Of a stretch of 35,648 bases of DNA, positions 19,111 to 19,411 are shown piece by piece (the stretch's first letter is position 1; the number at the start of each line of letters is the position of its first letter). The position numbers and the translations under genes are program-made. The notes beneath the pieces were generated by a model. It had not been told where the DNA came from and did not search any database. It saw nothing but the letters and a program-made list of their open reading frames with translations. This DNA is from Sulfurimonas sp. GTDB taxonomy: Bacteria; Campylobacterota; Campylobacteria; Campylobacterales; Sulfurimonadaceae. Location of the stretch: contig JALSUU010000079.1 in assembly GCA_027071075.1 (NCBI GenBank), positions 1 to 35,648 on the forward strand, written 5' to 3'.

Positions 19111-19380
19111 TAAGTACCTACTCATAAAGAACACCAACTATCAGAAACATAAAAAAGTGACTAATGCAAGGCGAAAATTTACAGGAGCTACTAGTAGCTT
19201 CAAGAATTTTCAACGAAGTCAGTAGTTACTTTTTTATGTTTCCCTACGGGCGATAAGGAGATAGCCCTATTGCGTCGTTAAATTTTTTTGAATTAACCAG
19301 TTAGTTCTTCAAAAATCTGCCTAGCACTAGAACTATCTCCTTATCGCTGATAATTGGTGTTCTTTATGAGTAGGTACTTA
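19111..19380. mobile_element. MITE-like nested inverted-repeat element (~270 bp), no coding capacity
   Basis: 34-bp terminal inverted repeats 19111-19144 (taagtacctactcataaagaacaccaactatcag) and 19347-19380 (ctgataattggtgttctttatgagtaggtactta), 1 mismatch; two internal hairpins (19144-19166/19220-19242 and 19250-19264/19333-19347); TA dinucleotides at both outer ends. Confidence 0.7.
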
Positions 19381-19384
19381 AAAG

Positions 19385-19411
19385 TATAATCCCTTATATT
19401 TTGGGATTATA
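19385..19411. repeat. hairpin adjoining the MITE-like element
   Basis: TATAATCCC (19385-19393) / GGGATTATA (19403-19411), perfect 9-bp stem, 9-nt loop. Confidence 0.6.

Follow-up and report, generated by a model that had tools for sequence, protein, structure and literature searches.

Background

By the usual account, a MITE is either a deletion derivative of a single transposon or a simple hairpin linked to such a transposon. IS630-dependent MITEs are already known, among them RUP, the closest described counterpart of the element analysed here: both RUP with IS630-Spn1 and the present element are non-coding, bear IS630-like terminal inverted repeats (TIRs), have TA as target (for the present element, presumably), occur as dispersed intergenic copies and have been proposed to be mobilised in trans (PMC2229807, PMC3049150). 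RUP is however a 107-bp simple hairpin of the pneumococcus and its near relatives, whereas the present element is 266 bp long, has an interior structured in the same way throughout a phylum and carries ends of different IS families; its length and three-arm fold thus place it outside the definition of RUP. The Correia/NEMIS elements of Neisseria (PMC2229807) are likewise dispersed, TIR-bounded, start with TA and form a long hairpin, but as described in the literature they measure ~107/155 bp and have no three-arm structure. The pneumococcal BOX (PMC3049150) is a small, modular repeat that forms extensive secondary structure and has a TIR similar to that of an IS (ISSpn2); its modularity lies in the number of internal boxB units, whereas that of the present element lies in the exchange of TIRs between IS families. 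Finally, the REPIN/RAYT and TIRtron/TIRYT systems (PMC3733652, PMC6006769) share with it inverted hairpin pairs and TIRs around a transposase gene, but rely on a Y1 (HUH) transposase, whereas the partners whose ends match the present element are DDE transposases (IS630, IS5). The literature searched yielded no description of such an element family in Sulfurimonas or Epsilonproteobacteria.

The element was found in a 35,648-nt stretch of the genome of a Sulfurimonas sp. (assembly GCA_027071075.1, contig JALSUU010000079.1), hereafter the window. We describe its structure, its copies and their insertion sites, the transposons that share its ends, and the conservation of its interior among Campylobacterota.

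Results and discussion

Architecture of the element

The features of the element are listed in Table 1. The initial annotation, made from the letters alone, had described an ORF-free segment closed by 34-bp TIRs with one mismatch and containing two separate long hairpins, which on one strand would fold into a three-way structure. The analysis bears this out: 33 of the 34 TIR positions are complementary, the arm stems pair at 21/23 (19144-19166/19220-19242) and 15/15 positions (19250-19264/19333-19347), and no ORF that touches the element is longer than 31 aa. Folded as single-stranded DNA, the segment reaches -72 kcal/mol, well outside the chance range (-22.2 +/- 3.7 for 200 dinucleotide shuffles, none of them as good; z -13.3). 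Arms 1 and 2 are homologous and stand in opposite orientation, each a copy of the same hairpin of ~97 nt. The G + C content of the element (35%) is close to that of the window (34%).

Table 1. Coordinates of the element and its parts in the window.
Feature	Position	Strand	Observations
Element proper	19113-19378	+	266 bp, AGT...ACT; boundaries placed by comparing 26 filled sites with their empty orthologues and by flank statistics (74 copies)
TA, left copy of presumed target duplication	19111-19112	.	Class-1/3 copies: position -2 is T in 62/74, position -1 is A in 69/74
TA, right copy of presumed target duplication	19379-19380	.	T in 66/74, A in 61/74; single TA at empty sites
Left TIR, TAAGTACCTACTCATAAAGAACACCAACTATCAG	19111-19144	+	24-25/31 identity to G092 IS630 end
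Right TIR	19347-19380	-	Complementary to left TIR at 33/34
Arm 1 hairpin	19144-19242	+	AAGGC...AACGAAG orientation; covariance model R1 match 92.5 bits; 96% of cells paired in alignment A1
Arm 1 unpaired CAAGGC, internal loop 5' side	19167-19172	+	A58 G59 G60 C61 invariant, 35/35 copies
Arm 1 conserved CAACGAAG, internal loop 3' side	19211-19218	+	AACG invariant, 35/35 copies
Hinge CCCTACGGG between arms	19242-19250	+	CCC invariant, GG in 33-35/35 (n=35 copies)
Arm 2 hairpin, homologous to arm 1 in inverse orientation	19250-19347	-	AAGGC...AACG orientation on minus strand; R1 match 93.7 bits at 19251-19346 (-)

The element lies between two divergent genes, one for a delta carbonic anhydrase (PF10563) on the minus strand, whose start is 40 bp away, and one for an outer-membrane efflux protein of the OEP/TolC type (PF02321) on the plus strand, starting at 185 bp. 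Just outside it, at 19385-19411 in the presumed promoter region of these genes, an inverted repeat TATAATCCC-TTATATTTT-GGGATTATA could represent an operator.

Dispersed copies and empty sites

The host genome (G000) contains a second full copy on contig C181, 78% identical to the first, and a partial one-arm copy on C54. Matches were retrieved from 26 of 60 relatives, where the ends fall into two subfamilies, AAGTACCTATCC... and AAGTGCC(T/A)GACC..., and 35-40 distinct copies were aligned. The copies adjoin unrelated genes, and some are nearly identical despite unrelated surroundings: two copies of the same genome (L011 and L035, both G025) share 266 of 268 positions with unrelated flanks (27-35%), and three genomes from outside the genus (G360, with 13 copies, G039 and G283) bear copies 95-99.6% identical at unrelated sites. 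The element has thus moved recently. The plasmid and phage collections contained no match to the element, nor did IMG/VR to the exact core.

Joining the flanks of 26 copies and searching them in 135 genomes of the genus uncovered dozens of uninterrupted orthologous sites, 80-98% identical across the junction; the clearest (L022/G076, L051/G092, L012/G104 and L011/G107) consist of the flanks and one TA, while some sites are off by 1-3 bp. For the window locus itself no empty orthologous site was found. The initial annotation had regarded the TA at both ends as compatible with TA-targeted insertion and ambiguous, since TA is also part of the repeat. TA borders both sides of 69% of 74 class-1/3 copies and is present once at the empty sites; a TA duplication and a TA-containing end are indistinguishable by sequence alone. 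The terminal TAs are best read as a target duplication, hence the length of 266 bp given to the element proper. IS630-family transposases produce such a TA duplication, so that these flanks fit a partner of that family.

These observations bear on the possibility that the segment is a cis-acting RNA or terminator of the carbonic anhydrase gene or efflux operon, fixed at its locus, as a single-copy sequence conserved at this position would have implied in the initial annotation. The strong fold with its compensatory changes and the 40 bp to the start codon of the carbonic anhydrase gene could be understood in this way, as could the position of some other elements, which lie at a stop codon or separate a ribosome-binding site from its start codon. 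The near-identical copies with unrelated flanks and neighbours, the empty sites and the IS ends described below argue instead for mobility, and neither a terminator-like site nor an Rfam family supports a role in cis: nothing stands out as promoter or terminator at the element, and no family exceeded its gathering score, the window element giving one sub-threshold chance miRNA match (25 bits against a cut-off of 90) and five other loci none. We regard a fixed cis-acting function as very unlikely, a regulatory side effect of the element at this locus being possible. The segment is a mobile, non-autonomous MITE-like element, short, non-coding and closed by TIRs (266 bp, 33/34, longest ORF 31 aa), with the dispersed copies and empty sites that the initial annotation had anticipated; compared with the empty sites, the insertions are clean at TA. 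Little host-gene function is expected of it; its insertion here most probably has no effect, or a mild regulatory one, on the carbonic anhydrase gene, whose leader it could enter from 40 bp upstream of the start.

Decay is also apparent, as interior-deleted palindromes of ~53-61 bp in three genomes (L315, L316, L317) and as solo ends in several; both are expected from slippage across hairpins. In the host, a 24-bp end with the sequence of the window TIR stands alone, its counterpart missing, at C6:4455-4478 (L063), and similar solo ends occur at L206:2744, L303:3546 and L314. A further host copy of the core, at C260:20799-20895 (L385), has class-6 ends (..GAAGTCTAATAA). Two of the interior-deleted palindromes, L316 (G088:C5:49656) and L317 (G013:C85:6204), occupy orthologous intergenic sites in two species and are of different end types; they could have arisen through two separate insertions at the same position or through in-situ replacement of the stem sequence. 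Another copy (L048:535-823, G007:C216) has an extra insertion of ~20 nt near the tip of arm 1 (TTTTGCTATGCCCTTTGGGTACAAGG).

IS630 elements with matching ends

Matches to the IS630 DDE domain were detected in 12 of 100 genomes of the genus. The closed genome G092 has three transposase copies (L336/L347/L350) in elements of ~1126-1130 bp with TIRs TAAGTACCTATCCAAAAATAAAACCAA, and G152 has others (L335/L346/L349/L351/L356) in elements of ~1064-1071 bp with TIRs TAAGTGCCTAACCAAAATTAATGTCATA. Their identity is given by NCBIfam and Pfam (NF033545 IS630, E 2e-44; DDE_3, E 1e-30), the HTH and DDE parts being in separate frames; in L350 the transposase is encoded by two ORFs, at 984-1286 and 1315-2025. 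The two end types of the non-coding element have their counterparts in the IS630 elements of G092 and G152. Within G092, 30-31 of 31 positions are identical between the end of the IS630 and those of the element; beyond them the sequences diverge. The TIRs thus match those of autonomous IS, over 27-31 nt for the IS630 of G092 and G152 and at 24-25/31 for the window copy, and the transposase-bearing full-length relative with the same TIR that the initial annotation had looked to is represented by IS630 elements of these congeners. As a separate observation, G152 contains ~30 IS630 (DDE_3) matches (L335, L346, L349, L351-L363), many of them broken, indicative of an IS630 burst in one Sulfurimonas genome.

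In the host, a relic consisting of the end part of the DDE_3 domain is followed by TAAGTGCCTAACAAAAATTAATGTCATA, 27/28 identical to the G152 end; the host assembly, a 94.8% complete draft, has no intact IS630. The exact mobiliser of the window element is not among the IS630 found, its own TIR reaching 24-25/31 with the nearest full IS630 end. No match to IS630 or Y1 was obtained in G025, a genome with ~28 TIR pairs. From these two genomes, many copies may be relics, or their partner may be unassembled. Throughout 1.46 Mb of loci, TIR pairs 600-3500 bp apart occurred twice only, both being truncated or solo ends beside ordinary genes.

The nature of the mobiliser has to be weighed against a Y1 (HUH) tyrosine transposase of the TIRYT kind, which would cut and join folded single strands and take the inverted hairpin pair as its substrate, as RAYTs do with REPINs. 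The two inverted homologous hairpins do resemble a REPIN, the unpaired loops, being conserved, point to a folded strand as what is recognised, and the only full-length Y1 gene of the host (L074 1075-1866) is bounded on both sides by perfect inverted repeats of 28 bp that start, like the element, with TAAGTACC. These repeats nevertheless share only TAAGTACC with the element, whereas IS630 ends match it over 28-31 bases; they are confined to their own locus, at 3 places on C220, and have no dispersed copies. Moreover, other members of the genus have different Y1 ends (TACACCCC...), and element-rich genomes such as G025 have no Y1 genes. Given that the dispersed repeats differ from those flanking the Y1 gene, we rejected a Y1/TIRYT mobiliser as extremely improbable.

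The preferred reading, which we hold with high confidence, is that of a MITE-like element: an IS630-family (Tc1/mariner-type DDE) transposase would recognise its TIRs in trans and insert it at a TA, duplicating the TA. The non-autonomous, TA-targeted element mobilised in trans that the initial annotation had proposed is thus well supported, because complete IS630 elements carry matching ends, in addition to the copies and empty sites; the movement in trans by the IS630 transposase is what we infer from these.

The Y1 genes themselves have noteworthy surroundings. The host gene (L074:1075-1931, G000:C220) is enclosed in perfect 28-bp inverted repeats TAAGTACCGTGTATTGAATTTCCACTTT, and in congeners (L085, L088, L095, L101) TACACCCCTGTGAATGAATCTCCACTTTTTA surrounds the same kind of gene, forming TIRYT-type units. 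Other Y1 genes (L089, L090, L094, L104) lie amid clustered palindromes (e.g. CGGAATCGGTACTTCAGTGC, CTCGTTCCCATGCTCCGCGTGGGAATGC), as REPtron-like arrays in Sulfurimonas.

One core with different ends

The interior has a far wider distribution and was missed by the initial annotation as a structured module found phylum-wide that also bears the ends of an IS5-family element and of further, unassigned classes. The covariance model of the arm matched 37 of 298 genomes of the phylum and 16 of 58 sampled genera, and the exact core pattern was present in at least 119 GTDB contigs, the 80 matches listed all belonging to Campylobacterota. The same interior is associated with at least seven TIR classes at a near-constant distance from the ends: TAAGTNCC (window), AGGGCACCTCTAAAAACCC, TAAGTAAGAGACCATAAATAA, TATACCAATCCCC, TTGA(GA/AC)CCTCTGAACAAA, TAGACTTCTTGCAAAAC and TTACCGCACCAACTAAATACC. 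Unlike class 1, the AGGGCACC class is associated with a 4-bp duplication (55% full, z 5.2).

A complete IS5-family element of 1238 bp (L364; NF033581, E 8e-75) has 20/20 inverted ends carrying TTGAACCCTCTGAACAA, and an IS630 remnant (L339) lies near a TATACCAATCCCC end. Among PF01609 matches in the genomes with other TIR classes, a matching TIR came from L364 only, and in the closed genome G360 no long element with the class-7 TIR was found, a lone end at 1675786 being located beside ordinary genes. Ends of at least two IS families, IS630 and IS5, are therefore recognisable by sequence on the core. As the same interior bears unrelated TIR classes, the core is seen as a structured module combined with the ends of different transposases, and it would repeatedly have acquired the end sequences of different resident transposons. 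Such exchange could have occurred by recombination within the stem or by gradual adaptation to the resident transposase.

Covariation and the structure of the interior

In the alignment of 25 arms, pairing is maintained in 96% of pair cells and two-sided changes are seen at 32 of 37 pairs, a level reached by no shuffle; with the partners slid, pairing was at most 55%. Over the whole element (35 copies), 91.5% of the cells of 108 pairs are paired, 77 pairs show two-sided change and the TIR stem is paired at 97.4%, against at most 51% in slid versions. These pair counts were taken from classes 1 and 3 only (alignment A3), because MAFFT over all TIR classes aligned the TIRs incorrectly and included one erroneous row (L197). 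In the same 35 copies the arm 1 loops AAGGC and AACG, which are unpaired, and the hinge CCC are all invariant or nearly so; the length of the three-arm structure is nearly constant (257-268 bp) in the four TIR classes measured. The interior is not derived from IS630 and constitutes a conserved three-arm module, made up of the TIR stem, two inverted homologous arms and a CCC/GGG hinge, whose structure is held by compensatory change.

Such paired changes might alternatively be a mutational by-product of template switching correcting quasi-palindromes, which would compete with selection for the shape and leave mobility unaffected. The TIR stems covary as strongly as the arm stems, and perfect or near-perfect stems are also present in the interior-deleted palindromes of 53-61 bp (L315-L317), as this process would produce. 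A purely mutational correction would however be expected to pair the AAGGC/AACG loops and to erase both them and the near-fixed length, whereas these loops are unpaired and invariant in 35/35 copies and the length is maintained across TIR classes. We consider the mutational origin unlikely and selection for the shape the likelier reading.

Selection would act because a folded single strand, RNA or DNA, aids persistence, possibly by shielding a neighbouring transcript or by bringing the ends together. Our best guess is that the shape acts as folded single-stranded DNA or RNA. In the inner stems, G-T wobble was counted in 6 columns of arm 1 against A-C in 1, and the reverse in arm 2, a slight indication that each arm is read on its own strand. 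The indication is slight because the asymmetry, which looked strand-specific per arm in 22 copies, is clear only in the inner stems in the larger set. Tentatively, and with less than even confidence, the three-arm interior may be a selfish module functioning as folded single-stranded RNA or DNA, its loops binding a host factor or protecting a transcript, and persisting in Campylobacterota, through exchange of its ends, as a parasite of whichever DDE transposon is resident (IS630, IS5 or others).

Conclusions

In contrast to the usual view of MITEs, the shape of a non-coding core is here conserved exactly across a phylum, and the ends that it carries match unrelated families: IS630 (TA), IS5, and a class showing duplication of 4 bp. 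Two questions become testable: how the interiors of MITEs outlast the loss of their transposon, and whether selection or a mutational artefact accounts for the structure of such repeats. The filled and empty sites form natural sets that, with the covariance model, provide a resource for annotating Sulfurimonas and its relatives; the element is spread through the sulfur-oxidising Campylobacterota.
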